From: a virus
DNA: 64,000 bases
Direction: 5' to 3' (one strand)
Virus record (IMG/VR): IMGVR_UViG_3300021425_003324
Coordinates: 22,417 to 86,416 of that record
Made by a program: the position numbers and the translations under genes. Shown here in pieces: positions 21,801-57,835 of the stretch. The stretch's first letter is position 1. Every line of letters starts with the position of its first letter. A model generated the notes under the pieces. It was not told the DNA's origin. It did not search any database and saw nothing but the letters and a program-made list of their open reading frames with translations.

Positions 21801-22273
21801 CCTCCATTTAATATACTAGCTCCGTTCCATTCTTGCACACCCCAAATTGTAGTACTAGTGTCCAGCCAATAAGCACCATCGGTTGGATCAGATCCAGGTG
21901 CTGTAGAACTTGCCTCAATCTGATTTAGATCAATGTCTGCTCTTACTACCCATGCGCTGTTGGCTATTCCTAGATATGAATATGCTGCTTGCAGCCCATA
22001 TTCGTTTAATTCGCTTGCATGTATCGGGTTGTTGTTGGCATCAATTTGGAATATCGGATCTCCAAATGTGTCAACTAAATCTCGTTGTGATGTAATCAAA
22101 TAAGGTATTCCTGCATTTGCATTTAATGTTCCTCTTGCAATTCCTGTACCTGCACCATTAGGCTTGTTACTTGCCGTTGCAATAAACAGTGCCGGAACTG
22201 TTCCTTGTTGTGCTGGTATATAAAAACTCTCGTCAACAACTTTTACTTCTACTCCTGGTGATACTAGTGCCAT
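18881..22273 (-). CDS. 18: Tail sheath protein gp18-like, greatly enlarged
   Basis: This is the contractile sheath subunit. The N-terminus MALVSPGVEVKVVDESFYIP and the C-terminus (INVARLIIYLRGVLKIATKP, then FIELVALRGIYDYLIVCD and a final strand PLRIKNTGEI) are typical of the T4 family and form the conserved inner domains. It has 1130 residues against 659 in T4. The excess lies between about 120 and 700 and contains four small display modules with a GxxWxDT...W or similar pattern (near 132-150, 374, 605 and 674), including GAYWLDTSTTIWGVQEWNG. These would face outward on the tail. It has a Shine-Dalgarno AGGAGAA and a CTAAATA element upstream. Confidence 0.94.
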   Translation of the reverse strand: MALVSPGVEVKVVDESFYIPAQQGTVPALFIATASNKPNGAGTGIARGTLNANAGIPYLITSQRDLVDTFGDPIFQIDANNNPIHASELNEYGLQAAYSYLGIANSAWVVRADIDLNQIEASSTAPGSDPTDGAYWLDTSTTIWGVQEWNGASILNGGQNFTYKKAIVITDDSLTSNTGSVETNGFSGVIPSKSVGNVGSYAVVATSTLNKTFYRNNTGTWVLVGSGAWSKSWPTLQGSEVFTISGVQAASFTITVISAEGHALSGDPQVINVTSGDTASDVADTINTVFSLTPVVSAAAVNGKLEIYVNSYWNNQEWTTMAIASTASADIDPESDIGFTDGTYYPPKLQISKHTDIPDYKLSATQPRPSGSVWIKITEPNQGIKIDLKTWNDAVKLWDTNTVNVYKSNAEALYNLDIAGGGSNLQMTDVYMQTDVSAGALPTAIHKLMKRMDTGPTTITGSIIIDGSIGAGSKSFTIQGTEKATANYSDIITVTATYNGLSTDSTLLAGAINDANVPNVTASVTNTNRVVISHALGGEIKFVDTDSVLASAGFTVYVDAANGTPNLYYQQGYSNAMYLQASLWNVLTYVASDDQPLGDTEEGQLWYSSTVDEIDILVHNGSEFVGLLYNGGAVGAASPYYNVDTALQTDPAGPIVSATMPLLQSDNTALVTGDLWVDTSDIDNYPKLYKFNAARTDLPLVKRWFELDTSDQTTEEGVLFADARYNTAGSNSDEPGDIKDLLSSDFVDPDSPDPALYPKGMLLVNTRRSGFNVKKYQKSYIDTAEKNIRYNDESMSNYAPARWTTESGNQEDGSGTFGRHAQRKVVVQRLQAEVNSNQDIRDDESRLFNLLSCPGYPELTNELVSLNYDRNLSAFIIADTPFRLQPNGTVLNNWATNVNLALEDNINGVVTADPYVGMYYPSGFTSDNFGNNVVVPPSHMMLRTIALSDQVSYPWFAPAGVRRGTITNASSTGYITDEGEFKAIALNEGLRDILYTNNINPITFVTGAGLITYGQKTRQLTASALDRINVARLIIYLRGVLKIATKPYLFEPNDQQTRDEVKAIIETIFIELVALRGIYDYLIVCDTSNNTPARIDRGELHIDIAIEPVKALEFIYIPLRIKNTGEISGL

Positions 22274-26175: not shown

Positions 26176-26628
26176 ATGAAGAAAATTGTTTGTAGTGGGG
26201 CATTATTATATGCAAAAAATAGCCAAAGATTTTTATTCCTCCATAGAGCACAAGGTAAGAATGGTAATTTATGGGGACTTGCAGGCGGAACTAATGAGGC
26301 TAGTGAAACACCGTGGACAGGGCTTGTTAGAGAAATAAAAGAAGAAATAGGCTGCATTGATATTATTAAATCTATACCTTTAGAAACATTTGTTAGTAAT
26401 GATGATTATTTTTTGTTCCATACATATTTGTGTATAGTTGAGAATGAATTTTTACCTATTTTAAATCAAGAACATGATGGATATGCTTGGGTAAAACTTT
26501 CTATGTGGCCAAAGCCTTTACATCCTGGGTTACGAAACACATTAAATACAAAAATTAATCAAGCAAAATTACAAACAGTAATAAATTTAATACAATTATT
26601 AGAAAAAAACAATGACGAACTCTGTTAA
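26176..26628 (+). CDS. Nudix hydrolase
   Basis: A 150-residue enzyme of the family that hydrolyses nucleoside diphosphates linked to another group. The complete Nudix box is at about 38-60: G-x5-E-x7-REIKEEIGC, beginning GGTNEASE. The preceding FLFLHRAQGKNGNLWGLAGG is the usual strand entry. Substrate cannot be told; NTP clean-up, NAD-type or nucleotide-sugar substrates are all possible. It follows gp15 in the same operon, has a weak ribosome-binding site, and overlaps the cupin gene by 17 bases. The position behind tail-completion genes suggests an auxiliary metabolic or modification role. Confidence 0.92.
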   Translation: MKKIVCSGALLYAKNSQRFLFLHRAQGKNGNLWGLAGGTNEASETPWTGLVREIKEEIGCIDIIKSIPLETFVSNDDYFLFHTYLCIVENEFLPILNQEHDGYAWVKLSMWPKPLHPGLRNTLNTKINQAKLQTVINLIQLLEKNNDELC

Positions 26629-26968
26629 AAAAACTGCATGGGGGTATGAACTACATTGGGCAATGCAAAAAACTTACACTGGAAAAATTTTTGTTTTTGA
26701 TAAAATTAGTAATACAGATATGATTTTTCATAAGCATAAAAACAAAAGTTTTTTTGTAAATAGTGGTAAATTTAAAGTTAGATTTGTTGATTTATCAAAC
26801 GGAGATTTTAAAGAAACATCTTTAGACGAAGGCGGAACTATTGATATACCTGCATTCACACCGCATCAAATTTGTTGCACTACAAGCAATGGATCTATCA
26901 ACGAAGTAAGCGATAGTAATAACGAAGAAGATATTTACATATTATTACAAGAAAAATTTATTAAATAA
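26612..26968 (+). CDS. Cupin-domain protein
   Basis: A 118-residue single-domain beta-barrel protein. Cupin motif 1 is IFHKHKNKSFFVNSGKFKVR (about 45-64), with the metal His pair H-x-H, though the usual glutamate is a serine. Motif 2 is IDIPAFTPHQ (about 88-97), with the third His. The architecture matches sugar-phosphate isomerase or sugar-epimerase type cupins that close a WGYE-x-HW start. The N-terminal KKTAWGYELHWAMQ is in keeping with those enzymes. It overlaps the Nudix gene and ends at TAATG with the next gene. A nucleotide-sugar pathway link with its neighbours is an inference. Confidence 0.8.
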   Translation: MTNSVKKTAWGYELHWAMQKTYTGKIFVFDKISNTDMIFHKHKNKSFFVNSGKFKVRFVDLSNGDFKETSLDEGGTIDIPAFTPHQICCTTSNGSINEVSDSNNEEDIYILLQEKFIK

Positions 26969-27234
26969 TGTTACCTATACTACTAAAAACTAATAGGATA
27001 ATCCAAGATTTAAATTTTTATAAAATAAAAATTAGACAAATAAAAAATGATAAAGCTAGAGATAAAGCTGATCTTTTGTTAAAAAAATTAAAAGAATATA
27101 TTGCTGATTTAGATCAAGCGCACAGAATTAGAACAGTAGGCGATTTACGACCAAATTTATTTACATATCATAGAGAACAAATTTATAAAACGAGGATGTC
27201 ATTAGATACTATAATTAAAGAAAATAACAAATGA
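26968..27234 (+). CDS. Small helical protein of unknown function
   Basis: An 88-residue protein, nearly all helical, with a lysine-rich coiled-coil-like segment (about 20-50, KDKADLLLKKLKEYIADLDQ) and a conserved-looking end (DLRPNLFTYHREQIYKTR). Short proteins of this kind occur in marine T4-like phages beside tail-completion genes; no function is known to me. It is translationally coupled at both ends: TAATG with the cupin gene and ATGA with the parvulin gene. Confidence 0.65.
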   Translation: MLPILLKTNRIIQDLNFYKIKIRQIKNDKARDKADLLLKKLKEYIADLDQAHRIRTVGDLRPNLFTYHREQIYKTRMSLDTIIKENNK

Positions 27235-27566
27235 GTTTTCCGAGAGTTAGATGCAGTCATATTTTATTAAGTCATGCAGATGCTATTGAATCTACCCATT
27301 CAAGAGATCTAGCATATGCAGTCATAGATGCAAAACGTATTATCCATGACTTACAAACTGGTGGAATATCATGGGCTACTGCCGTTAAGGAAAATAGTGC
27401 GTGTAATCGAAGTTGGTATAAAGATGGTGATTTAGGTTGGTTTGATTTAACAGATGGCGTATGCGAGGAGCTTTATTTTGCTGTAAATGCAGCGCCAAAA
27501 GACATATTACTAGACGAGCCTATTCAAACACCATATGGTATCCATATTATCGTAAGGACAGGGTAA
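27231..27566 (+). CDS. Parvulin-type peptidyl-prolyl cis-trans isomerase
   Basis: A 111-residue stand-alone parvulin domain, the enzyme that isomerises X-Pro bonds in folding proteins. Signature blocks are VRCSHILLSH (6-15), the helix KRIIHDLQTGGISWATAVKE (about 35-54), GDLGWFDLTDG (66-76) and the final strand PIQTPYGIHIIVRTG (97-111). There is no signal peptide, so it acts in the cytoplasm. It lies in the operon that starts with gp14 and gp15 and overlaps the 2OG oxygenase gene at TAATG. Assisting folding of Pro/Gly-rich virion proteins is a natural hypothesis, but unproven. Confidence 0.88.
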   Translation: MSFPRVRCSHILLSHADAIESTHSRDLAYAVIDAKRIIHDLQTGGISWATAVKENSACNRSWYKDGDLGWFDLTDGVCEELYFAVNAAPKDILLDEPIQTPYGIHIIVRTG

Positions 27567-28195
27567 TGTCTTTTGCTGATAACGTTATAAGTGTTCCTTT
27601 TTTTTCTCAAGACGAATGTAAAGAAATAGCAGCTTGGGGTTATCAGTTAGAAAATAGTCTAATAGAGAATAATTTACAAGATTACAATAAAAGTCCTGAT
27701 ATCATTCAAAGTATTACTACTGCAAATTATCAACACTATAACTTTTTCTCTTTTTTTCCTGCTTTTGCTGACAGATTTGCTGATTGCCTAACCCAATTAA
27801 AAATTGAATTAGAATGGCCTATAATTTGTCAAAGTTGGATAAACATCTATAGAAAAAATCAAGGTATTGATTGGCATACCCATCTAGGAAGGATGGGCAG
27901 GAGCTTTTCAGCAAATATATTTATTGCTGGAAAAAATACTCCTACTGTGATTTACAAACCATTTAACACGAAATCTGTAAAAGCAGAAAATATAATAGGT
28001 CAACTTCACATATTTCCATGTGAATTGTTTCATATGGTTCCGAAAAATAAATCAGATACAGATAGAATCACCATTGGAATTACCTGTCATAGTTACATGG
28101 ATATTACACGGGATTCGTTAAATCAATGGGCATTTAATTCTCAAATGTATCAAGATTCTATCATCTTAACCAATAAACATTTTTTACCTAGTTAA
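27566..28195 (+). CDS. Putative 2OG-Fe(II) oxygenase (HxH type), member 1
   Basis: I start at the ATG at 27566, which overlaps the parvulin stop (TAATG). A longer frame opens at 27461 but would read through the parvulin gene. The 209 residues have a double-stranded beta-helix oxygenase pattern: WINIYRKNQGIDWHTHLG with H104-x-H106, then GQLHIFPCELFHMVP with H156, and DRITIGITCHSYM with R167 as 2-oxoglutarate anchor. The first motif is H-x-H rather than the classical H-x-D, as in some phage oxygenases that I recall. Substrate unknown. It closes the plus-strand operon and converges with the next minus gene, overlapping four bases. Confidence 0.75.
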   Translation: MSFADNVISVPFFSQDECKEIAAWGYQLENSLIENNLQDYNKSPDIIQSITTANYQHYNFFSFFPAFADRFADCLTQLKIELEWPIICQSWINIYRKNQGIDWHTHLGRMGRSFSANIFIAGKNTPTVIYKPFNTKSVKAENIIGQLHIFPCELFHMVPKNKSDTDRITIGITCHSYMDITRDSLNQWAFNSQMYQDSIILTNKHFLPS

Positions 28196-28485
28196 TCTTC
28201 AATATCGCCTAATGGTGTAAAATTGGTTAAGACACCGCCATTAATGTTTGGATCGTTTTGCTTAATCTCTTTTTGTGCAATTTCGTTTTCGTCTTGACCT
28301 GCTTCGTATCCTATTTCTACAATTTCACAATTTTTATTAGGATGATTTTCTGCTACCCATTTTTCTGCGTTAGCTCTTGTAACCCATTTTCTAACTTCCT
28401 CATACCCGTCTAAATCTGGATCCCATGTATGCCAAACTTTTACATTTGGATGTTGTGGATGTGGTTTTTTTACTGCGAATGGCAT
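28192..28485 (-). CDS. Small hydrophilic protein of unknown function
   Basis: A 97-residue protein. The first half is basic and aromatic (PFAVKKPHPQHPNVKVWHTWD), followed by one helix with RKWVTRANAEKWVAENHP, which resembles small domains that pair a strand with a helix. The second half is acidic (EAGQDENEIAQ) and probably disordered. It has a strong Shine-Dalgarno (AAGGAGAA) and a late-promoter-like element, so it is likely well expressed. It is the last gene of the minus-strand run and I do not recognise its family. Confidence 0.6.
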   Translation of the reverse strand: MPFAVKKPHPQHPNVKVWHTWDPDLDGYEEVRKWVTRANAEKWVAENHPNKNCEIVEIGYEAGQDENEIAQKEIKQNDPNINGGVLTNFTPLGDIED

Positions 28486-28509
28486 TTTTTTGTTCTCCTT
28501 CTATAAAGA

Positions 28510-29088
28510 TTATTTATCAAAAGTATACCAACCTGTTATTATGTATTTTTCTCCTGTGTAAATAGGATTTCCCCTATGTGGATACATAAAATTAGTTGGA
28601 AATATTAATAATTTTCCTAGTTCTGGTTTAATTTTTTTTCCTTGGTATAAAAATTCAGTCTCTCCGCCTTTGTCTACATCGTTCAAATACAACATATAAT
28701 TTACAACCCTTACACTGCTTCCTATATTTTCAATTTCATTGTGCCACGGATGATATCCTTCATGTGGTAATGTTTTTTGTACACTCATTCCTTTTGCAGA
28801 ATGATCTTGGGCTTGTTTTAGGATAGAATACTTTTCTATGTACTCGTCAAAATAAATTTTATTTAAATTTTCGTAAAAATATCCACACAAATTGTAATCA
28901 TAATGATACATATTTTGGGTATGAGCCCAATCAAAAACAATTCGTTCATCTTGGTTTCGTCGTATGTCATTCAATTTATTTGTAATATTATTTTGCGACA
29001 TTATATTAAAATGTCTAATTATTTCTTCACAATATTCTTGACTATATGCATTTTTATATTCTTCTATTCCGTCATAATTGTCTATCAT
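28510..29088 (-). CDS. Prolyl-4-hydroxylase-like 2OG-Fe(II) oxygenase, member 2
   Basis: A 192-residue enzyme with a P4H-type catalytic pattern. The iron ligands are probably H116-N-E118 (YHPWHNE) and H171 (YPHRGNP), and K181 (TGEKYIITGW) would hold 2-oxoglutarate, as in prolyl 4-hydroxylases. The intervening LYLNDVDKGGETEF and PELGKLLIFPTNF are the common family segments. The classical Asp is a Glu here. The target may be prolines or other residues of phage or host proteins, or a small molecule. It overlaps the SGNH-like gene by 17 bases. Confidence 0.85.
   Translation of the reverse strand: MIDNYDGIEEYKNAYSQEYCEEIIRHFNIMSQNNITNKLNDIRRNQDERIVFDWAHTQNMYHYDYNLCGYFYENLNKIYFDEYIEKYSILKQAQDHSAKGMSVQKTLPHEGYHPWHNEIENIGSSVRVVNYMLYLNDVDKGGETEFLYQGKKIKPELGKLLIFPTNFMYPHRGNPIYTGEKYIITGWYTFDK
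28511..28518 (-). promoter_or_regulatory. Late-promoter-like element GATAAATA
   Basis: GATAAATA overlaps the 3' end (Asp-Lys-stop) of the 192-aa oxygenase gene and lies about 25 bases upstream of the 97-aa gene ATG, with AAGGAGAA between. Same pattern as at 9842. Confidence 0.5.
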
Positions 29089-29896
29089 GTATTTCTCTTA
29101 TATATGGTATATACTTTTCTGCTATCAACTCATGCGCACGATAATTGTAGTGTTCATAATCTACTTTTTCTTTTTTTATATTTTTGTATCCGATACTTTC
29201 CAAATAAGTTTCACAATCAAACTTAGCTATGTATGTTTTAGATAGTTTAGTAAAAAAATTTAATGTTTCTTTTGGAATAAAACATTTGTTATTAATATTC
29301 CAAACGTACATAGGCACGTTATTATTGGCGCAAATCATATCGCATACAGCGATATCTTTCATATAATCTTCTTGTTCTAAATGGGTATTTTGATAATGCC
29401 ACATTTGAAAATAAAGATAAGAACTACGTCTAGGATCAGGTTCGGCAATCCAAGGTGCGGTATCTCGTATGTATGGAAACATTGCCCAATCTTCAGGCCC
29501 TGCCTTTATAAAATGTTCCAAATACTTGTTTTTGACACTTAATGAAATACTCCAACGATCAATTAGATCACTGCTTGGATCTTTTTGCAAGAAAAAATCT
29601 ATTGGAAATATTTTTTTGTAATCTAAGTCAGGATTTATCACAACAGGAAATCTACCCCAATATGTGCTCTGTAAAAAAACTTCATCTATATCGTCGTATG
29701 TGTTGAAAGCATGCGCTAGGAACCTAGGGTATGCTCTATTACCTACGCCTGCACTTGCCATAATAACACATTTTTTATTATGTATTTTACTGTAAATTTC
29801 TGCATAATTATTTTTTTGCCATACATTTACAGGTTGATTTAAGTTTGTATTATTATAACCCATTGTATGACTGCAACCAACAAACAGTGTTCTCAT
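29072..29896 (-). CDS. SGNH/GDSL hydrolase-like protein
   Basis: A 274-residue protein with a likely SGNH esterase fold. The first block is FVGCSHTMG (6-13), with Ser9 as possible nucleophile in the G-x-S context. A second block has ASAGVGNRAYPR with the conserved Gly and Asn. Near residue 250 the ending DYEHYNYRAHELIAEKY is where SGNH enzymes carry their Asp and His. SGNH enzymes act on acyl or acetyl groups of glycans or lipids. A sugar-modifying or acyl-removing role fits the glycosyltransferase and carbamoyltransferase nearby. The catalytic assignment is tentative. Confidence 0.65.
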   Translation of the reverse strand: MRTLFVGCSHTMGYNNTNLNQPVNVWQKNNYAEIYSKIHNKKCVIMASAGVGNRAYPRFLAHAFNTYDDIDEVFLQSTYWGRFPVVINPDLDYKKIFPIDFFLQKDPSSDLIDRWSISLSVKNKYLEHFIKAGPEDWAMFPYIRDTAPWIAEPDPRRSSYLYFQMWHYQNTHLEQEDYMKDIAVCDMICANNNVPMYVWNINNKCFIPKETLNFFTKLSKTYIAKFDCETYLESIGYKNIKKEKVDYEHYNYRAHELIAEKYIPYIREIHDRQL

Positions 29897-30441
29897 AAAT
29901 GTTCTATACTAAAATCAATAACTAAAACTTTTCTATTATTTAATGTAGGATAAGCGCCATGCCATACTTTAGAATCCATTACTAATAATAATCCTGGAAA
30001 AGGTGTCCAATACTTAACTTCTATATCTCCTACGTTATTATAACAAAATGCAAAAAAACTTCCTTCATTATTACCTTTTTGTACAGTTTTATCAAAGTAT
30101 AAAACTGTTGTTACTCCAGTTAAACCTTTATTATGATTGTGAATTCCTTTCCAACCATTAACATAATATTCTATACTCCAAGCCATAATAGGATTATTTA
30201 TTAAGTAACTATATTTTTTTATTGTTAAAATATTGTTTACTTCTTTTTTAATAATATTTGTTAATTCTGATATATTAGATAATTCTTGTCCTATTTGATA
30301 TCCATTTACAGTTGTGCTTACACTTGGCGTAACTTTATTTGGTTCATTACTATTAAATAAATTTAAATATTTTTCATAATCAACCCATTTACTTTCTAAA
30401 ATCCAAGAATTATAAAATTCATAAAATATTTTGTTTTCCAT
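29893..30441 (-). CDS. Putative 2OG-Fe(II) oxygenase (HxH type), member 3
   Basis: A 182-residue protein. The motif KGIHNHNKGLTGVTTVLYF has H101-x-H103; the distal part has SKVWHGAYPTLNNRKVLVID with H161 and R170. The region between (GSFFAFCYNN, TPFPGLLLVMDSK) fits the beta-helix barrel. It resembles phage oxygenases of the TIGR02466 type. It overlaps the SGNH-like gene by four bases and the next upstream gene by 23 bases, so it is co-translated. Substrate unknown. Confidence 0.72.
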   Translation of the reverse strand: MENKIFYEFYNSWILESKWVDYEKYLNLFNSNEPNKVTPSVSTTVNGYQIGQELSNISELTNIIKKEVNNILTIKKYSYLINNPIMAWSIEYYVNGWKGIHNHNKGLTGVTTVLYFDKTVQKGNNEGSFFAFCYNNVGDIEVKYWTPFPGLLLVMDSKVWHGAYPTLNNRKVLVIDFSIEHL

Positions 30442-31027
30442 TTATTTTTTTTTCTTTGATTGTAAGATTAGCTGATAAAGTAATTCTTGGAACATTTTTA
30501 ACAGGTAGTACATAATGGTTAATCCAACTTGGAAAAACAAGTAGTAAACCTTGTGTTTGATAAGGTGTTATATGATGATATTCCCACCGTTTGAATATCC
30601 TATTTAACCCGCTAGCCTTAATTAAATTAAAATTAGGACATTCGAATACTAATTCGCTTACACCTTCTTTACACTGTAAAAAATATATTAAACTTAGGCT
30701 CCTACCTGGAAAAGTATGATCATGAGGTTCTTGAAATTCATCTTTGTTATAGATATTTGCCCAAAATTCATCACAAATTATTTCAAAATTTGTAATAGGC
30801 TCTAATTGATTTAGAAAATCATGCAATACAGGATTTATAGACTCAAACCATATGTTCCATGGTAGTAAATCATTTTTTTTATTTCTTATAGAAGTCTTGC
30901 TTGTGCCGTAAGACCAACTCGCATCAAAATATGTTTGATCATTGATATAAGGTTTCCATATTTCTAAAATTTCTTCATGATTTTCTATTTGTTTTTCAAA
31001 AAAATAAGATGGAAAAAATGAATGCAT
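30419..31027 (-). CDS. Putative 2OG-Fe(II) oxygenase, member 4
   Basis: A 202-residue protein with a clear barrel core. EPHDHTFPGRSLSLIYFLQ gives H102-D103-H104, and LLLVFPSWINHYVLPV supplies H171 followed by RITLSANL with R181. The N-terminal half holds helices and an aromatic segment (DASWSYGTSKTSIRN). The spacing H-x-H ... H ... R is shared with members 1, 3 and 6, pointing to one duplicated family. It starts with ATG at 31027 overlapping the next gene's stop. Substrate unknown. Confidence 0.75.
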   Translation of the reverse strand: MHSFFPSYFFEKQIENHEEILEIWKPYINDQTYFDASWSYGTSKTSIRNKKNDLLPWNIWFESINPVLHDFLNQLEPITNFEIICDEFWANIYNKDEFQEPHDHTFPGRSLSLIYFLQCKEGVSELVFECPNFNLIKASGLNRIFKRWEYHHITPYQTQGLLLVFPSWINHYVLPVKNVPRITLSANLTIKEKKINGKQNIL

Positions 31028-31503
31028 TATTTTACATTAAAAAAGAATACTTGTGTTAATCTACCAGTATTTGCAGAATCGCCAAAACCGGACAAATTAC
31101 TCGAATGCAGTTGATTTGCTTTGTAAAAAATAGCACGGTTAAATTTATTACCTATAGAATCGATTAAATTATTATTCTCAAAGAAATTAGTTCCGCTTTC
31201 AACAGGTGCATTAGGTGTAAGATACAACACACCTGCATAATCGCAGTTATCTGAATGTATCCAACTTTTACTTCCTTCTAGACATAACTGGAAACAAAAA
31301 CTATCCATAACCCATTCTATAATATTAATTCTTAAATTATTTTCTATCTTAAGTTTTATAAACTCTCTATACTGGTAATCAGCTGCTAAACTTCTTTTAC
31401 CCGGAAATGATCCTTCTACAAAAAAATCCAAGTTTAAGGCCTGTTGTCTTACTAGTTCTGGTTTTGGCAAAAAATTATCTATAACAGCAATACTTAATTC
31501 CAT
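31027..31503 (-). CDS. DUF6445-like putative 2OG-Fe(II) oxygenase, member 5
   Basis: A 158-residue protein whose pattern matches the DUF6445 family as I know it: VIDNFLPKPELVRQQALNLDF at the start (about 7-27), the iron site WIHSDNCDYAGVLYL with canonical H83-x-D85, then FYKANQLHSSNLSGFG with H133, and GRLTQVFFF with R148. The APVESGTNFF turn is also typical. It has the textbook HxD...H...R set, so activity is likely. It is arranged head-to-tail with the two flanking oxygenase genes with one- to four-base overlaps. Confidence 0.82.
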   Translation of the reverse strand: MELSIAVIDNFLPKPELVRQQALNLDFFVEGSFPGKRSLAADYQYREFIKLKIENNLRINIIEWVMDSFCFQLCLEGSKSWIHSDNCDYAGVLYLTPNAPVESGTNFFENNNLIDSIGNKFNRAIFYKANQLHSSNLSGFGDSANTGRLTQVFFFNVK

Positions 31504-32021
31504 TAATTATAATCCATGTAAACATTACCAGATATTGTAGTTCCTTTACCACCAGGTTTTACATAGTGTTCTAAAAAACTTGGAAAAATTATAATTGATC
31601 CTGCCGGCAAATTAGGTCTAAAATCTAATGGAAATTCTAAACAGTTTGTTCCTATATGATTTTGTATATCTTTATAACAGGGATTCATAAAAACTGTATT
31701 AGACACATCTACAGTTTCGTATATTATAAAACTCCAAGCTGCTTTTGGATGAATATGTATATCTTGCCAGTCATTCTCATCATACTTATTCCTCCATATT
31801 TGCCCAAAACTTGGATTCTGTCCTATAAATTTTTCACCTAAATTTTTGACAAAAATTTCTATAAGATATTCAAAAGTTTCATTTGTAATATTGTGTTTTT
31901 CAGTAAAAGTAGTAGGAGTTTCACTTAACCATATCTTTGAAAATTCTTGTTCATCTATTTGAATTTTTTCCAAATCTATTTCGTCTATAAAAATAGGTAT
32001 TGGAAAAATATTATGTACCAT
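31503..32021 (-). CDS. Putative 2OG-Fe(II) oxygenase (HxH type), member 6
   Basis: I start at the ATG at 32019-32021 (MVHNIFPIPIF), four bases after the upstream stop. The frame is open further back, to 32102, but that would overlap the preceding gene by 77 bases. The 172-residue product has WQDIHIHPKAAWSFIIYE with H89-x-H91 and PSFLEHYVKPGGKG with H152. The usual arginine after the last His is not obvious (GTTISGNVYM), so 2-oxoglutarate binding may differ. Related to members 1, 3 and 4. Confidence 0.72.
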   Translation of the reverse strand: MVHNIFPIPIFIDEIDLEKIQIDEQEFSKIWLSETPTTFTEKHNITNETFEYLIEIFVKNLGEKFIGQNPSFGQIWRNKYDENDWQDIHIHPKAAWSFIIYETVDVSNTVFMNPCYKDIQNHIGTNCLEFPLDFRPNLPAGSIIIFPSFLEHYVKPGGKGTTISGNVYMDYN

Positions 32022-32025
32022 GATA

Positions 32026-32655
32026 TTATTTAGGAGAAGGTAGCGGAATTTTCCGCATGGTTTTGAATACCAGTGTTGCTCGCAAACCTTTATAGTTTTC
32101 ATTTGGTGGTAATCCGTGATGTGGAATATTACCTTTAAATAAAAAAATTCTACCTGGAACTGGTGTGATTTTTTGCCAAGTATTATCTATTTTTATAAGT
32201 GTTTCTCCTCCCCAATGGGTATTCCAATTTTTATTTACATAATATATCCAGCTTATTCCATTATCACATGAACAATCTGTGTGCGGAACAGTGTTGTGTA
32301 TGTATTGTTGCCCATTAATTAATATTTCACCTAACTCTAACTCAAAAGGAATTAAATGTGTAATTGCATTGTAAATCATTTGAAAACAAGAATCATTCGC
32401 AATTGCACTAATTGGAGGATAAATTTGCTGTTTCAAACATGCAACTTCTAGCCACGATTCGTCAGCTCCTATATCATAATTTTTATCTATTGGATAGTTG
32501 CTAGTATGACCATAAAACCAACTGTAAGAATTAAATACTAAATCATGCACATGATTTATAAAATAATTAGGAAATAGATCATCTATAATAATAATTTGAT
32601 CTTGTGATAAATCATAATCATATAAATTTATCATTTCTTGATTGTTAATTATCAT
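32026..32655 (-). CDS. Putative 2OG-Fe(II) oxygenase (HxD type), member 7
   Basis: A 209-residue protein with a textbook set: VPHTDCSC gives H125-x-D127, THWGGETLIK is the conserved turn, PGRIFLFKGNIPHHG supplies H179 or H180, and LRATLVFKT has R192. The N-terminus (IIIIDDLFPNYFINHVHDLV) resembles the substrate-binding lid of phage and bacterial prolyl-hydroxylase-like proteins. It overlaps the carbamoyltransferase gene by 11 bases, which ties the oxygenases to the sugar-modification genes in one operon. Confidence 0.82.
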   Translation of the reverse strand: MIINNQEMINLYDYDLSQDQIIIIDDLFPNYFINHVHDLVFNSYSWFYGHTSNYPIDKNYDIGADESWLEVACLKQQIYPPISAIANDSCFQMIYNAITHLIPFELELGEILINGQQYIHNTVPHTDCSCDNGISWIYYVNKNWNTHWGGETLIKIDNTWQKITPVPGRIFLFKGNIPHHGLPPNENYKGLRATLVFKTMRKIPLPSPK

Positions 32656-34435
32656 TTTTTACAGTAATTAATTTTTCATATTCTGGCAAATATAAGTATT
32701 CTATATCACTCTTAGACAATGTAGCTAATGCATCGTCTAAAGTTTCAACTAATGGTTCGCCTGCTAAGTTAAAACTTGTGTTAAATAATATTGGCACTTT
32801 TGTTTCATTATAAAAACATTTTATTAAAGAATAGTAATGAGGATTTTGATCTTCTGTAACAGTTTGTATCCTACAGGTATTATCTACATGTACTATAGAA
32901 GGAATTTGATCTTTTGCATGATCTAAAACATCTACCGCAAACATCATGTGCGGACTTTCTGATAAACTTTTCATATCAAACCAATTAGAGGCGTGTTCTT
33001 TAAGGACTGTTCCAGCAAATGGTCTAAAATATTCTCTTTTTTTGACTTTATTAACAAAATCTTTACCATCTTTAAATCTAGGATCAAAAAGTAAAGATCT
33101 ATTTCCAAGTGCTCTTGGACCGTTTTCACTCCTACCCTGGAAAATAGCAACAATATTTTTTTGTATTAGTAAATTTACAATTTCTAATTCGTTGCAATCA
33201 CTTATTTTTGCACTATATTTTTTTGCAAGTTTTGCAATATTATCTTGTGTATAATTAGTGGGCAACCCGAGATATAAATTGTTACTTACTGTTTTGTTAT
33301 TTGAATTAGTTTTAAGATAATGTATAAAAGCTGCTGCACCAATAGCTGTTCCTGCATCGCTTGATATAGGTTCTACAAACAAAGAAATATCATGTTTTTT
33401 CAACTTATCTAAATAATAATAATTTGCAACACAATTTAATCCATAACCGCCACTTAATACAACATTTTTGTTTCCAGTTAATTCAACTGCATATAGGATT
33501 AATTCTAAAACTTTTTGTTGTGTTTCTTTTTGAACTGCAAATGCTAAATCTTTTCTATTTTGTAACTTTGTTAATTCGTGTAATTCGATATAATTTTCAT
33601 CATATAAAAAAGAGTACGGTTGTGTGTTAATTAAAGCACTGTTAGGATAAGTAGGTATAAATAAATCTTTATTAGCAGTTGGATACAAATCGTTTACAGT
33701 AAAAAAACTAGGAATATTAGGATTTTCAGCTCCATAAGAAGACAAGCCCATTGTTTTTCCAGCTTCAATTGCTTGGAATCCACAATAATTAGTTACTGCT
33801 TCATACATTTTTACTAAGCCGCAAGCAGATTCTATAATGCAAATGTGATTACCTTCTTCTTGGAATTTTGCACTGGACATATCCTCTATATATCGTGTTA
33901 CAAAAGGACCATTTCCGCCTACATGCTTCCATAAAGTTTTAAAATTATTTGGATATTCACATGAAAAGATAGTTTCCAATTCAAATAATAATTCAGACCT
34001 ACCTGTGCCTAAATCAGCTTCTAGGAATGTTCCTGCACCGTCAACTATTACAGCAGTTGCAGATTCAAATCCTGATCTATAGAAAGCACAAGCAGCATGC
34101 AATTTATGATGCATGTTGCTTAAATCTATTACTTGTGGATGCGGTCTACTTTCTGGATAGGTTTCTATTAATCTAAGTTTTCTAGCTAACCCTGTGTACA
34201 CATCATCTCCGGTATAGTCAACCATACCGGCAGTTTCTGAAAGAGGTTGGGTGTGAGCTATTACTAAAAAATCTAAATGATCAGTATAATCTAATATTTT
34301 GGTCATTGCAGCAAAAGGACCGCCGTCGTATTTTTGGCGAGATAATCTTTCTTCTTCAATTGCAAATACAATTTGTCCATTGTGCATTAGACATACACCG
34401 CCGTTATGACCTCTTGTTATTCCTGCTATCCACAT
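32645..34435 (-). CDS. Carbamoyltransferase of the NodU/CmcH family
   Basis: A 596-residue enzyme that transfers a carbamoyl group from carbamoyl phosphate (via ATP) to a hydroxyl of a sugar or antibiotic. The N-terminal Kae1-like domain begins WIAGITRGHNGGVCLM and has the EEERLSRQKYDGGP loop and a metal-binding NMHHKLHAACAFY helix (about 106-118). VLSGGYGLNCVANYYY precedes the C-terminal YrdC-like domain. That domain has GRSENGPRALGNRSLLFDPR (about 434-453), YFRPFAGTVL and an FNLAGEPLVETLDDAL segment. Length and motifs are complete, so it should be active. Carbamoyltransferases are known in marine cyanophages. Placement next to GT9 and oxygenases suggests carbamoylation of a phage-borne or host-surface glycan. 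Confidence 0.93.
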   Translation of the reverse strand: MWIAGITRGHNGGVCLMHNGQIVFAIEEERLSRQKYDGGPFAAMTKILDYTDHLDFLVIAHTQPLSETAGMVDYTGDDVYTGLARKLRLIETYPESRPHPQVIDLSNMHHKLHAACAFYRSGFESATAVIVDGAGTFLEADLGTGRSELLFELETIFSCEYPNNFKTLWKHVGGNGPFVTRYIEDMSSAKFQEEGNHICIIESACGLVKMYEAVTNYCGFQAIEAGKTMGLSSYGAENPNIPSFFTVNDLYPTANKDLFIPTYPNSALINTQPYSFLYDENYIELHELTKLQNRKDLAFAVQKETQQKVLELILYAVELTGNKNVVLSGGYGLNCVANYYYLDKLKKHDISLFVEPISSDAGTAIGAAAFIHYLKTNSNNKTVSNNLYLGLPTNYTQDNIAKLAKKYSAKISDCNELEIVNLLIQKNIVAIFQGRSENGPRALGNRSLLFDPRFKDGKDFVNKVKKREYFRPFAGTVLKEHASNWFDMKSLSESPHMMFAVDVLDHAKDQIPSIVHVDNTCRIQTVTEDQNPHYYSLIKCFYNETKVPILFNTSFNLAGEPLVETLDDALATLSKSDIEYLYLPEYEKLITVKNDN

Positions 34436-35440
34436 TTATCTACCTTTAAATGTAAGTTTTGGCAAATCTTTTTTTTGAGTTATTTCTGGTTTTTTTGAAC
34501 TTTTTCCTAGTCTTTTCCTTACACTTGACAAAATATCCTCTATTTGTTTTTTAGATAGCTCCATTGATTCGTCATTAAATCTTTCAATTTCTTCATCGAT
34601 TGAAATTCGAATTGGAGAATATTTGCGTTTATCTTGTCCTACGTCTATAATATCAAAATTTTTGTCGTTTGGATAACTTATGTTAATAGGATACGTAGAT
34701 CCAAGTACAACTGTTGCCGTTTTACCTAATGATTTTACTATATGCTGTCCTAGGCTATCACAGCCTAGGAAGTGATCAGCAATTTCAAGGATAGCTGCCC
34801 AAATTCTAATATCTGGTATTTGAGGTTTTGCAACTGGATATTTTTGTTCTATGTCTTGATTAAAAGAGATAGGAATTTCTGACATTATAATAACAGCATA
34901 TTCTTTCCTAAGTTGATTAATTATATCAACAATATTATCTAATTGAAAACTTCTACTAGTTGAATCTATTATGTAATCTTTTCCTACTGTTTCAACTGAC
35001 CTCCCAAATGGTTGAACGACTAACACTTTATCAAAACCTGTAACTTCTTTCACTTCGTCAATTACACTTGCTGCAGATGTTATTTCCTGCTTGTTAAAAT
35101 AAATTTTAGGTACATGTAAGTCTCGTAGCCCTTTTTTGTTGATTTCTATGTCAAATGCTTGTGCAATATTACATTTTTGGTTGTAATATTCCCAAACTCT
35201 ATATGGCTCTGGGCTCACACAAATGCGATCTTTAATAAAATTTTCAAAAAGTCCTTTGTGCCATACATCGTAAGCTTTGTTGTGTAGGATAGGATGACCT
35301 TTAAAAAAATCAGTGCCAGATTCACAAACTATGATAAAATTGTCTTCAGGATTGTCTTTATAATAATTTTCAAAAGCAGGAATACTTGCTAAGGTCCTTC
35401 CTGCTCCTCCGTTGATAAAAAATGCTGTAGATTTACTCAA
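34436..35440 (-). CDS. GT9-like glycosyltransferase
   Basis: A 334-residue GT-B-type protein. The N-terminal FFINGGAGRTLASIPAFENY resembles the start of heptosyltransferase-like (GT9) enzymes, and the C-terminal block DHFLGCDSLGQHIVKSLGK followed by TVVLGSTYPIN is their donor-site signature. The Lys/Ser/Pro-rich end (about 305-334) is an unusual tail. The start is TTG with AGAGGT before it, since no in-frame ATG exists near; an exact TATAAATA box lies 23 bases upstream. It begins the long minus-strand cassette that runs through carbamoyltransferase, SGNH and oxygenase genes. Donor sugar and acceptor are unknown. Confidence 0.78.
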   Translation of the reverse strand: MSKSTAFFINGGAGRTLASIPAFENYYKDNPEDNFIIVCESGTDFFKGHPILHNKAYDVWHKGLFENFIKDRICVSPEPYRVWEYYNQKCNIAQAFDIEINKKGLRDLHVPKIYFNKQEITSAASVIDEVKEVTGFDKVLVVQPFGRSVETVGKDYIIDSTSRSFQLDNIVDIINQLRKEYAVIIMSEIPISFNQDIEQKYPVAKPQIPDIRIWAAILEIADHFLGCDSLGQHIVKSLGKTATVVLGSTYPINISYPNDKNFDIIDVGQDKRKYSPIRISIDEEIERFNDESMELSKKQIEDILSSVRKRLGKSSKKPEITQKKDLPKLTFKGR

Positions 35441-35462: not shown

Positions 35463-35470
35463 TATTTATA
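35463..35470 (-). promoter_or_regulatory. Exact T4-type late promoter TATAAATA
   Basis: The minus strand reads TATAAATA, an exact match to the T4 late consensus, with AT-rich flanks, about 22 bases upstream of the GT9-like TTG start. It probably drives the modification cassette from 35440 leftwards. Confidence 0.65.
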
Positions 35471-35493: not shown

Positions 35494-36210
35494 TTATAGA
35501 ATTATTGGTCCTTCACCATCCGGTGGTATTTCAGATGCTGGATCAATTGGTTCCATTTTATAAGCAAATTTTACAGGTATACCGGCTGCTTGCATTACAT
35601 TTGGCCAGTCTCTCAATCGCTGACGATAAACTGTAAATTTGTCTTTTAAGCTCTGCGGCATATCATCAGTTACTTCAGCATCACTATTTTTTAATAAACT
35701 TGCTCGTTTAGCTCTAAGATCGTCCCATGTTAGTTCTCTATCAAGCTCAGTTCCAAAGATTGCCCAATCTGTTGATCTTACTTGGAATGTAACATTATCG
35801 TTTTCGTCTACATGCAGAGTCTGTGGATCCCATATATCTCTAGCTACCAATGGAGTTTGATATGTAAAAGTACGGTACCCAGGCACTTCAACCACTCCAG
35901 GAGGTATAACTTCACTTGTATAATCTTCCTCAGCTTCATCAATAACAGGTCCCATTAATTGTCCTATCATTGGATTAGCTATGCAATCTACTTCTACATA
36001 TCTACAATTTAGAGGTAACGGTCTTCCGTCATTTTTCTCTAACTGGGTTAATGGTCCTGCTCCTTGTTTTCCTGTATCATTATCTATTATTAAGAACAAT
36101 TTATCAGGTCCATCATAGGTACATGTTCTTGTTTTACCTTGGCTAAAAGAATGATCAATACAATATTCATTTGGTAATGCTAATTCCCAATCTAGTTCAA
36201 CCATTGCCAT
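35494..36210 (-). CDS. Tail-fibre assembly or chaperone-like protein (Phage_tail_APC-type C-terminus)
   Basis: A 238-residue protein. The C-terminal part has LTWDDLRAKRASLLKNSDAE and FTVYRQRLRDWPNVMQAAG (about 160-215), the W-x-x-x-R...LLxxSD...Y-R-x-x-LRDWP pattern of phage tail assembly chaperones. The N-terminal half is a beta-rich unknown domain with MVELDWELALPNEYCIDHSF. Such proteins often help fibres trimerise and lie beside fibre genes, here directly downstream of the cysteine-rich triplet. It has a TGGAGAA Shine-Dalgarno. It may also be a virion component in its own right. Confidence 0.72.
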   Translation of the reverse strand: MAMVELDWELALPNEYCIDHSFSQGKTRTCTYDGPDKLFLIIDNDTGKQGAGPLTQLEKNDGRPLPLNCRYVEVDCIANPMIGQLMGPVIDEAEEDYTSEVIPPGVVEVPGYRTFTYQTPLVARDIWDPQTLHVDENDNVTFQVRSTDWAIFGTELDRELTWDDLRAKRASLLKNSDAEVTDDMPQSLKDKFTVYRQRLRDWPNVMQAAGIPVKFAYKMEPIDPASEIPPDGEGPIIL

Positions 36211-36223
36211 AAAATTTTCTCCA

Positions 36224-37036
36224 TTAAAAATATGTTACTTTAACTAAACCGCCACCGCCGGTGCCACCTTGACCACAACAACGGCCACAATAGTTTGAAG
36301 TTGCACTTTGTCCACCAGCTCCATAAGGAACAGTCCAACAACCACATCTTATCCAACAGTAATTTGAATTTTGTTCGTACAATCCATTACTTAAATTCGG
36401 TGCACCTGTGCTATGTCCAATATGTTTCCAGCAATGACAAGTACCGCCAGGATACTGAAAAGCAGCTTGTCCTTGAAAATTACCTTCATGTGTGTACATT
36501 GCCCAATCACCATCTGCACTAGTTCCTACACACCCAGGTCTAATACAATAAGGCATGGTCGAAAAACACCCATCTGTCCAATCTGTATTTGCATATCCTT
36601 GTCCTCCTCCACATGCACACAAATTACTTAAATTATATCCATTTACATAACTTGTACACCCATTACAGGCTGTGCATTCTCTACTAAGACAGCGATAAAC
36701 TCCTGCAGCACAAACTGTGTATGTACAACCTGGAGTTGACCTAATACTCTTGCTCACATATGATCCACCACCAGATGGCTTTGTATGATGACATCTATCA
36801 CAACTACAGGCTCCGTTACCGTTGCCTCCTGCTCCCCACAACTCCCAATTTAATTGACAAACACTGCCTGGAACTGTCCATAGACAACAACAGCCCGGAC
36901 TACACCTATCCGGAGTTCCATAAAACCATTTTGTTGAGTATGTAGATCTAACTCCACTTGATAAGTGTGATGTATCAATAGATTTATCTAAAACTTGATC
37001 ACCATGTAAACGTTTGTAACTCCTGTATGATGCCAT
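36224..37036 (-). CDS. Cysteine/glycine-rich putative adhesin, paralogue 1
   Basis: A 270-residue protein with 27 cysteines, about 10 percent. Order: N-terminal SYRSYKRLHGDQVLD segment, CSPGCCCLWTVPG (about 45-57), a strand WELWGAGGNG characteristic of glycine-rich phage adhesin domains, CSCDRCHH, the unit YTVCAAGVYRCLSREC, NGYNLSNLCACGG, WIRCGCWTVPYGAGG and a final CCGQGGTGGGGLVKVTYF. No signal peptide or membrane segment. The glycine-rich scaffold suggests a receptor-binding tip like that of gp38-type adhesins; the cysteines could bind metal or form disulfides outside the cell. Copies 2 and 3 follow upstream. Confidence 0.82.
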   Translation of the reverse strand: MASYRSYKRLHGDQVLDKSIDTSHLSSGVRSTYSTKWFYGTPDRCSPGCCCLWTVPGSVCQLNWELWGAGGNGNGACSCDRCHHTKPSGGGSYVSKSIRSTPGCTYTVCAAGVYRCLSRECTACNGCTSYVNGYNLSNLCACGGGQGYANTDWTDGCFSTMPYCIRPGCVGTSADGDWAMYTHEGNFQGQAAFQYPGGTCHCWKHIGHSTGAPNLSNGLYEQNSNYCWIRCGCWTVPYGAGGQSATSNYCGRCCGQGGTGGGGLVKVTYF

Positions 37037-37046
37037 AATATATATC

Positions 37047-37832
37047 CTAAATGTACATTACTTTTACTAATCCACCACCGCCAGTGCCGCCTTGCCCACA
37101 ACAACTACTGCCGCAAAAAGTATTCAAGGCACGCTGACCACCAGTTCCATATGGTACTGCAAAATAACCACATCTAATCCAGCATTGTCTTACTCCTCCA
37201 GAAGAATAACCACCAATTTTTGGAGCTTGGCCTTGATGTATTTCTTGTGGATGACAATGACAATAATCGCTTGCAGTAGACCAGCCTGGTCGGTGTGTAG
37301 CTATGGTCATGTCATTACCATTATGAGTTGGTCCAAAACAATAATTATTTACTCCAAAACATCCAGCATTCCACGCTGTGTTAGCCCTTGCTCTATCACC
37401 GCCGCAAGCACAAAAATTACTAAGGTTGTATCCGTTTACATAAGTTGTGCATCCGTTGTAGTATGCTTCGCATTCTCTACTAAGACAGCGATATACTCCA
37501 GCAGCACATACTGAGTATTGACACCCTTGTACTGTGCTAATTGTTTTTGCAGAGTATGTACCTCCCATTGCAGCCTGGAAATGATGACATCTATTACAAC
37601 TGCATGCACCAGCACCATTACCACCTGCACCCCATAATTCCCACTGTAATCTTTGTACCTGTGTAGGTACAGTCCATAAACAGCAGCAACCTGGAGAACA
37701 AAAACCTAATAAACCATAAAACCATTTTACACCAAATGTGTGTAATGTAGTGTCATTAAATTTATTATCTGCTATAGTTTCATCGTAAAATTGATCACCA
37801 TTTACTTTTTTATAACTTGCATATGTTGCCAT
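37047..37832 (-). CDS. Cysteine/glycine-rich putative adhesin, paralogue 2
   Basis: A 261-residue paralogue with about 23 cysteines. It conserves CSPGCCCLWTVP, LQWELWGAGGNG, CSCNRCHH, YSVCAAGVYRCLSREC, GYNLSNFCACGG, CWIRCGYFAVPYGTGGQ and CCGQGGTGGGGLVKVMYI. The central region from about 150 to 210 (NNYCFGPTHNGNDM onward) differs most from paralogues 1 and 3, as expected for a variable host-recognition loop. It is separated from the flanking copies by 7-10 bases and has GAGGATATT before the ATG. Confidence 0.82.
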   Translation of the reverse strand: MATYASYKKVNGDQFYDETIADNKFNDTTLHTFGVKWFYGLLGFCSPGCCCLWTVPTQVQRLQWELWGAGGNGAGACSCNRCHHFQAAMGGTYSAKTISTVQGCQYSVCAAGVYRCLSRECEAYYNGCTTYVNGYNLSNFCACGGDRARANTAWNAGCFGVNNYCFGPTHNGNDMTIATHRPGWSTASDYCHCHPQEIHQGQAPKIGGYSSGGVRQCWIRCGYFAVPYGTGGQRALNTFCGSSCCGQGGTGGGGLVKVMYI

Positions 37833-37839
37833 AATATCC

Positions 37840-38622
37840 TCATGTAAAAGTAATTTTTACTGCTCCTGGCCCACCTGTTCCGCCTTGACCACAACAACTA
37901 GAACCACAGTATGTTGATTGAGCATTCTGACCTCCATGTCCTGGAGGTGCGATCCAACAACCGCATCTAATCCAACACACTGCAAGGGCGTGTGCAACTG
38001 TACCTCCTAAGAACGGTGCCGGGGTTGGTCTAGTATATTGATGATGGCAATGACAATTAAAAATTCCGCCAAACATACCTACATGATTTCCAAATCCAAA
38101 ATCACCTCCATTATTTCCCGGACTCAAACAACAGCTCCAGCAGCTAAGACAATAATTTGTCCAATCTGTGTTAGCTATTGCATAGTGACCTCCTATAGCA
38201 CAAAAATTACTAAGATTGTAACCGTTTACATAAGTTGTGCATCCGTTAGCAAGTCCTGTACATTCTCTGCTAAGACATCTGTAAACACCGCCTGCGCATA
38301 CAGTGTATTGGCATCCTGGCACTGTGTCTATCATTTTTGTGTTAAAATATCCACCACCGGCTCCGTGATAATGATGACATCTATCACAACTACAGGCACC
38401 AGTTCCGTTTCCACCTGCTCCCCACATTTCCCAGTAAACACGACGGGTACAGCCAGGAACAGTCCATAAACAGCAGCATCCAGGACTGCATCTACAATGA
38501 TTTCCTGTAACCCATTTTACACAATATCTGTGTCTAGCATCAGGTCCTAATTTTTCATTTGTAACAGTTCCGTCTATAAATTGTTCGGTTTTAATTTTTT
38601 TATAGCTCTCGTAAGTTGCCAT
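37840..38622 (-). CDS. Cysteine/glycine-rich putative adhesin, paralogue 3
   Basis: A 260-residue paralogue with about 26 cysteines. It conserves CSPGCCCLWTVPG, VYWEMWGAGGNG, CSCDRCHHYHGAGGG, YTVCAGGVYRCLSREC, NGYNLSNFCAIGG, CWIRCGCWIAPPGHGGQ and CCGQGGTGGPGAVKITF. Its variable centre has a cluster YCLSCWSCCLSPG not seen in the others. The ATG overlaps the stop of the 208-aa gene; GGAGG lies about 17 bases upstream, a long spacing. First of the triplet in transcription order. Confidence 0.82.
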   Translation of the reverse strand: MATYESYKKIKTEQFIDGTVTNEKLGPDARHRYCVKWVTGNHCRCSPGCCCLWTVPGCTRRVYWEMWGAGGNGTGACSCDRCHHYHGAGGGYFNTKMIDTVPGCQYTVCAGGVYRCLSRECTGLANGCTTYVNGYNLSNFCAIGGHYAIANTDWTNYCLSCWSCCLSPGNNGGDFGFGNHVGMFGGIFNCHCHHQYTRPTPAPFLGGTVAHALAVCWIRCGCWIAPPGHGGQNAQSTYCGSSCCGQGGTGGPGAVKITFT

Positions 38623-57806: not shown

Positions 57807-57835
57807 TAGTCATTCCAAGAAAAATTTGTATCTAA
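57807..57835 (-). pseudogene. Remnant of a DTNFSWxDYT coding module behind the stop codon
   Basis: On the minus strand this stretch encodes DTNFSWNDYT followed by TGA, but out of frame with the gene that has just ended at 57832. Its 29 bases differ at three positions from 58604-58632 (inside that gene) and from 61065-61093 (end of the 431-aa gene, DTNFSWSDYT-stop). It appears to be the old 3' end of a propeller gene. Confidence 0.75.

Follow-up and report, generated by a model that had tools for sequence, protein, structure and literature searches.

A linked set of genes for fibre-tip-like proteins, a chaperone-like protein and several predicted modifying enzymes was analysed in the IMG/VR virus record IMGVR_UViG_3300021425_003324, a fragment of 86,416 bases, of which positions 22417-86416 (64,000 nucleotides) are called the window below. 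Thirteen of the genes, GR3, GR2, GR1, K, J, I, H, G, F, E, D, C and B, are encoded on the minus strand from position 38622 of the window down to 28510, and gene A is on the plus strand. In dozens of other marine phages the fibre-tip-like proteins (GR) and the glycosyltransferase-like protein J are linked far beyond chance, in both directions. We propose that the genes form a late-gene maturation module, which would glycosylate, carbamoylate and hydroxylate the receptor-binding fibre tips of the phage itself, and we give this proposal about an even chance of being correct.

An earlier note on this DNA had described the interval 27566-35440 as a multi-step modification cassette with seven 2-oxoglutarate (2OG) oxygenase-like genes, directed at a glycan, at fibre proteins or at a small molecule. 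The cassette is well supported by the two-way linkage and by conserved active-site residues. Of these three targets, fibre proteins fit the evidence best, since the receptor-binding-fibre-like proteins GR1 to GR3 and the chaperone-like protein K are encoded just outside that interval, directly upstream of J; the proposed chemistry is to be read as conditionally as the target.

Genes of the module

37840-38622, minus: GR3, Gly/Cys-rich fibre-tip-like protein, first of three paralogues (phrog_4205, 7e-50)
37047-37832, minus: GR2, Gly/Cys-rich fibre-tip-like protein, candidate substrate (AlphaFold2 (AF2) model and Foldseek)
36224-37036, minus: GR1, Gly/Cys-rich fibre-tip-like protein (phrog_4205, 1.7e-49)
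35494-36210, minus: K, tail-fibre-assembly-chaperone-like protein (phrog_4912, tail fiber assembly, 4.5e-7)
34436-35440, minus: J, glycosyltransferase family 9 (GT9)-like protein with predicted heptosyltransferase fold, TTG start (AF2 and Foldseek)
32645-34435, minus: I, complete O-carbamoyltransferase of the NodU/TobZ type (PF02543 and PF16861)
32026-32655, minus: H, 2OG-Fe(II) oxygenase, HxD...H...R, weakly similar to PHD and prolyl-4-hydroxylase (P4H) (PF13640)
31503-32021 (corrected start), minus: G, 2OG-Fe(II) oxygenase, HxH...H, without late Arg (PF13759)
31027-31503, minus: F, DUF6445 protein, HxD...H...R (PF20043)
30419-31027, minus: E, 2OG-Fe(II) oxygenase, HxH...H...R (PF13759, 1.7e-9; phrog_81, 8e-31)
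29893-30441, minus: D, divergent 2OG oxygenase, HxH...H...R (conserved ligands, family profile)
29072-29896, minus: C, SGNH-like hydrolase/acyltransferase, GxSH and DxEH motifs (conserved residues)
28510-29088, minus: B, P4H-like 2OG oxygenase, HxE...H...K (PF13640, 6e-13)
27566-28195, plus: A, 2OG-Fe(II) oxygenase, HxH...H...R, opposing the others, optional (PF13759, 9.7e-7; phrog_81, 6.6e-19)

Linkage across phages

Loci were fetched from IMG/VR with J as bait, so that neither fibres nor oxygenases influenced the selection. The set comprised 83 loci, of which dereplication left 44; a carbamoyltransferase bait, which yielded only four loci, contributed three of the 83, and J was the productive bait. 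The oxygenase counts downstream of J refer to loci with at least 5 kb on that side. A GR protein was encoded upstream of J in 59/59 loci (36/36 after dereplication), K was upstream of J and adjoined it in 68/68 (40/40), I was downstream of J in 79/82 (42/43), and at least one 2OG oxygenase gene was downstream of J in 71/71 (38/38). The 71 loci had at least three such genes in 49 cases, at least five in 32 and at least seven in five, with a mean of 3.8 per locus downstream of J versus 0.15 upstream. In the reverse direction, GR as bait led to 77 newly fetched loci, and J followed the fibre protein in all 58 that had enough sequence to look for it; GR-bait and J-bait loci are partly from the same contigs, which makes the two counts partly dependent. 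The neighbourhood comparison that the earlier note had suggested has thus revealed genes that are regularly linked across relatives.

The core GR-K-J-I is nearly constant, and it is followed by an optional part that varies in its set of oxygenases, in C, and in the presence of a second SGNH-like protein, a halogenase-like enzyme, a cupin and ADP-heptose genes. The number of oxygenase genes ranges from one to eight per locus; the seven of the window are a high number, and one locus has eight. Nevertheless, diverged phages repeatedly show the order H-G-F-(A/E)-D-C-B behind J-I. A tryptophan-halogenase-like enzyme is encoded in 34 loci (representative PF04820, 5e-92), and the ADP-heptose genes GmhB, HldE and HldD are present in 58, 38 and 36 loci, respectively; none of these three heptose genes scored above NCBIfam equivalog cut-offs. 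A 16 kb megablast search against annotated phages had zero matches. The cyanophages S-CAM1, S-CAM3 and P-SSM2 keep diverged versions of fibre, chaperone, J and I together. The core is carried by several isolated Synechococcus and Prochlorococcus phages.

More distant homologues of J were also observed. In the Vibrio podovirus SBP1 one lies between tail genes (L173:4998-8519), and in the Aeromonas phage HJ05 (L172:3300-5915) the upstream neighbour of another has a Cys-rich end, hinting that the link of J to tail or Cys-rich proteins is older than the cyanophage module.

Fibre-tip-like proteins and chaperone

GR3 is 53-55% identical to GR1 and GR2. Profile searches with J, C and GR gave no informative relative in the PDB, and therefore AF2 models were made for J and GR2. 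The GR2 model (predicted local distance difference test, pLDDT, 72; predicted template modelling score, pTM, 0.72) had as its best PDB matches in Foldseek the fibre of cyanophage Pam3 (7ypx and 7yfw, E 1.7e-6 and 9.6e-6, template modelling score, TM, 0.50). GR2 has the predicted fold of this receptor-binding fibre, which is TNF-like plus glycine-rich. Its nearest relatives among predicted viral structures are proteins of S-CAM3 and P-SSM2, and the GR profile also matches the fibre-like proteins whose genes immediately precede J in S-CAM1, S-CAM3 and P-SSM2. Cys is conserved to at least 90% at 22 of the 261 positions of GR2. In the Pam3 fibre (PMC9608196), the glycine-rich domain is credited with host-receptor recognition, and a dedicated chaperone assembles the fibre. 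The second chaperone-family match of K, to PF16778 (Phage_tail_APC), reached 1.8e-5 and 24.9 bits (cut-off 26.6); both of its matches are near threshold.

Glycosyltransferase, carbamoyltransferase and SGNH-like protein

The AF2 model of J (pLDDT 86, pTM 0.86) matched 3tov best (E 1.7e-8), followed by WaaC, TibC and HepII, with TM of about 0.45-0.6 and 9-13% identity. The GT9-like glycosyltransferase of the earlier note is therefore retained at the level of the predicted fold, a GT-B fold as in heptosyltransferases, but not at the level of family profiles: J had zero Pfam hits, PF01075 (GT9) included, and nine of its 33 relatives match PF01075 weakly (best 0.0042). The family has an invariant Arg (R15 in J) within a GGAGR motif, at what appears, by comparison with WaaC, to be the position of the catalytic Asp of heptosyltransferases. 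For both reasons J is termed GT9-like and not a member of GT9.

The second enzyme, I, was correctly recognised as a complete NodU-type carbamoyltransferase, as both Pfam domains are above cut-off over the full length. Its structural relatives in the PDB are 7xb6 (3e-57), GdmN (4e-42) and TobZ (1e-41), and it scores below the NodU equivalog cut-off. A second, shorter carbamoyltransferase (507 amino acids, 47% identity across the C-terminal part) is encoded upstream of the window in the same record (L093, 2848-4371), and several genes judged by eye to be glycosyltransferase-like are found at 12599-17951 of L093, also before the window.

For C, the SGNH-like assignment is weak. On the one hand, S9, D246 and H249 (D246xxH249) are invariant in its family; on the other hand, Lipase_GDSL_2 was matched by only two of the 20 family members, and weakly (best 0.0093).

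2OG-Fe(II) oxygenases

The seven oxygenase-like reading frames are as the earlier note had listed them, six nearly end to end at 28510-32655 and the seventh on the plus strand; in the series J-I-H-G-F-E-D-C-B the genes are separated by 0 to +4 nucleotides or overlap by 1 to 23. The start of G is better placed at 32021 (172 amino acids), because its homologues measure 171-176 amino acids. All seven proteins are, judged by profiles and conserved residues, members of the 2OG-Fe(II) oxygenase superfamily, D via its family only. Six of them exceed a Pfam gathering cut-off: A (29.6), E (38.4) and G (29.1) that of PF13759 (27), B (49.9) and H (33.0) that of PF13640 (27), and F (48.8) that of PF20043, i.e., DUF6445 (24). 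D itself has no Pfam match, but weak matches to PF13759 occur in 12 of the 18 members of its family (best 1.4e-4), and the D-family profile aligns to the A/E/G profile at 95% probability. Of the hidden Markov model searches that had been suggested, those for DUF6445 and the carbamoyltransferase gave scores above cut-off, whereas A, E and G reached only 17.3, 41.0 and 22.2 bits with TIGR02466 (curated cut-off 62.5).

The metal-ligand residues are kept among relatives in each of the five family alignments. They are HxH...H in the A/E/G family, with a late Arg in A and E and none in G; H101xH103...H161 and R170 in D; H83xD85...H133 and R148 in F; H125xD127...H179 and R192 in H; and H116xE/D...H171 and K181 in B. 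Four HxH genes (A, D, E and G) and three with HxD or HxE (F, H and B) had been distinguished before, and this division holds. The accompanying idea that the HxH genes are local duplicates was abandoned: identity among the seven proteins does not exceed 27%, in contrast to mostly 40-70% with their counterparts in other phages, and therefore they are, as far as sequence comparison can tell, old and co-inherited paralogues.

The A/E/G profile matches the solved structures 2rg4 and 3bvc, and that of B matches the Bacillus P4H structures 5hv0/3itq (7e-16). H matches PHD2/P4H more weakly; it is also FlmC-like (NF052475, 5.8e-17, under cut-off), and a literature search on FlmC found nothing. The DUF6445 profile of F matched no solved oxygenase structure, and a weak match to DNA polymerase kappa was judged to be due to chance. 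DUF6445 is matched by all 34 relatives of F, three of which also match PF13640 weakly, and together with the conserved HxD...H...R this makes F a probable 2OG oxygenase. In view of the 2OG-oxygenase residues, the PHROG labels of H ("DNA endonuclease V", phrog_274) and F ("minor coat protein", phrog_1644) are regarded as misnomers. A has no counterpart in the close relative L011.

Proposed function and alternatives

In the proposed maturation module, the three Gly/Cys-rich proteins would be produced together with the assembly chaperone K, and J would put a sugar on their tips. In relatives the donor would probably be ADP-heptose, because ADP-heptose genes share their cassette. I would attach a carbamoyl group, most likely onto a sugar hydroxyl, the oxygenases would add hydroxyl groups to the sugar or to fibre residues, thereby making or changing groups used by the other enzymes, and C would remove or add acyl groups. 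Acceptor, donor, order of steps and purpose are what we infer in this scheme. As the optional part differs between phages, each could carry its own tip chemistry, which might tune receptor binding or shield the tip. A more detailed version is put forward tentatively, as a possibility that is less likely to be right than wrong: the tip modification would be combinatorially varied and phage-specific, built on a heptose-type sugar. This sugar would be carbamoylated, a changing assortment of oxygenases would hydroxylate it, and a halogenase-like enzyme might modify it further in some phages. Given the extreme Cys content of the tips, even an S-linkage of the sugar is conceivable.

Several points weigh against a modification of fibre tips. 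The role of the module is deduced from gene content, conserved catalytic residues, predicted folds and linkage, and the linkage may reflect hitch-hiking in a hypervariable host-recognition cluster, where genes modifying the host surface have also been proposed (PMC7029224). The confidence of the GR2 model is moderate (pLDDT 72), and the presumed replacement of the catalytic Asp in J may mean that activity or donor differ. GmhB, HldE and HldD were not found in the 86-kb record of the window virus, which is a fragment. Collagen-like repeats were not found in the structural proteins examined, which leaves no obvious substrate for a P4H-like enzyme; the only candidate for GXX runs was a poly-Gly stretch at 57832-59835, which is not of the collagen type. 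Lastly, the Pam3 fibre protein gp24 needs no more than its chaperone to fold in E. coli.

The main alternative, which we regard as rather unlikely, is that the enzymes remodel a glycan on the surface of the infected cell, e.g., to block superinfection or the trapping of progeny, and that they adjoin the fibre genes only by sharing a host-recognition island. Carbamoyl groups do occur on bacterial glycans. For pelagimyophages, glycosyltransferases in this island, which was described in 2020, were proposed to modify the host O-chain (PMC7029224), and such gene sets were termed lipopolysaccharide (LPS) genes by Sullivan et al. (2010; PMC3037559). However, J and the fibre proteins are inseparable both ways (59/59 and 58/58), and the genes belong to a late structural block, in which they immediately follow the fibre chaperone. 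Furthermore, the LPS of marine Synechococcus is free of heptose (PMC4515613), and therefore cyanophages are unlikely to make heptose for the normal LPS core, although a new, foreign sugar could also mask a receptor; this argument concerns cyanophages.

It is improbable that the genes are loose, independent cargo at a recombination hotspot, with oxygenases that have unrelated jobs such as lowering 2-oxoglutarate or acting on host metabolites. The wide variation in number and type of oxygenases (1 to 8 per locus) would fit this explanation, a nitrogen/2OG hypothesis has been published (Sullivan et al., PMC3037559), and pelagiphages have eight non-orthologous 2OG genes near one another (PMC9599517). 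Yet it does not account well for the recurring gene order behind J-I, for metal ligands kept in every oxygenase family, or for the concentration of oxygenases downstream of J (3.8 versus 0.15). TET/JBP enzymes are 2OG oxygenases. Nonetheless, hypermodification of nucleobases is very improbable: a carbamoyltransferase from a phage contig does modify 5-hydroxymethylcytosine, but the DNA-modifying carbamoyltransferases of MetaGPA co-occurred with thymidylate synthase homologues and the glycosyltransferase-adjacent ones were on unmodified contigs (PMC8670742), thymidylate synthase (PF00303) was not found in the 86-kb record, itself a fragment, and Tet_JBP was matched by none of the window's oxygenases and by one D relative at 0.025.

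Comparison with known systems

TibC O-heptosylates a protein adhesin. J shares the predicted GT-B fold with TibC and other GT9 heptosyltransferases, but differs in its low identity, in the Arg presumed to be at the usual catalytic Asp position, and in having no autotransporter partner. I resembles the O-carbamoyltransferases NodU, TobZ and GdmN in its full length with both domains, and differs by its score under the NodU equivalog cut-off. The closest parallels to the whole module are the cyanophages S-SSM7, Sf-FS3, S-CAM1, S-CAM3 and P-SSM2 (T4-GC 302/303 region), which have Gly/Cys-rich fibre-like proteins, a K homologue, J and a carbamoyltransferase in one block; in S-SSM7, Sf-FS3 and P-SSM2 the block also holds 2OG genes, as in the window. 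All five have heptose genes in the same slot and fewer or no oxygenases there, whereas the window's record has seven oxygenases and C, and heptose genes were not found in it. The Pam3 fibre gp24 and its chaperone gp25 are matched by the predicted fold of GR2 and by the chaperone-like gene directly after the fibre genes; in contrast, the GR proteins are rich in Cys (23-33 residues) and modifying enzymes are encoded behind them, a cassette that does not appear in the part of the Pam3 account available (PMC9608196). Clusters of divergent 2OG oxygenase genes were reported for pelagiphages in 2022, where they partner a ferrochelatase and are not mutually adjacent, unlike those of the window (PMC9599517).

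That cyanophages carry several 2OG genes along with carbamoyltransferase and LPS-type genes has been known since 2010 (PMC3037559). Explanations offered for the 2OG, carbamoyltransferase and heptose genes include a part in LPS synthesis, nitrogen metabolism or DNA repair, and even a status as stuffer DNA (PMC3037559). In open PubMed Central papers no prior account of a fibre-chaperone-glycosyltransferase-carbamoyltransferase-oxygenase module was found. Because their linkage to receptor-binding-fibre-like proteins is strict in both directions, these cyanophage genes acquire one testable role, and, if it is true, fibre-tip chemistry, not sequence alone, becomes a candidate determinant of host range.

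Flanking genes and tail

35463-35470, minus: exact TATAAATA, T4-late-promoter-like, 23 nucleotides before the start of J (exact match)
28192-28485, minus: small conserved module protein (homologues in the window and 27 other loci of the set)
27231-27566, plus: parvulin-type peptidyl-prolyl isomerase, overlapping the start of A (PF00639, 8.6e-9)
26612-26968, plus: cupin of the type seen in the cassettes of relatives (module cupin profile, 1.4e-47; PF00190 below cut-off)

The exact TATAAATA in front of the cassette was noticed earlier and is present, but octamers of this type have eight exact copies in the window versus 13.1 expected by chance; they are not enriched, and a role beyond that of a chance-level motif is not supported. 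The window encodes a T4-type contractile tail with sheath, sheath stabiliser and head-tail adaptor. The sheath is very long (1130 amino acids, 18881-22273), and it is closest to sheaths of the PA5oct group of Pseudomonas jumbo phages rather than to those of cyanophages, and for this reason no host is assigned to the window virus; the cassette is common to cyanophages although the sheath is not closest to theirs. Homologues of the parvulin-type isomerase are present in seven loci of the set, and they adjoin 2OG genes wherever gene order was checked.

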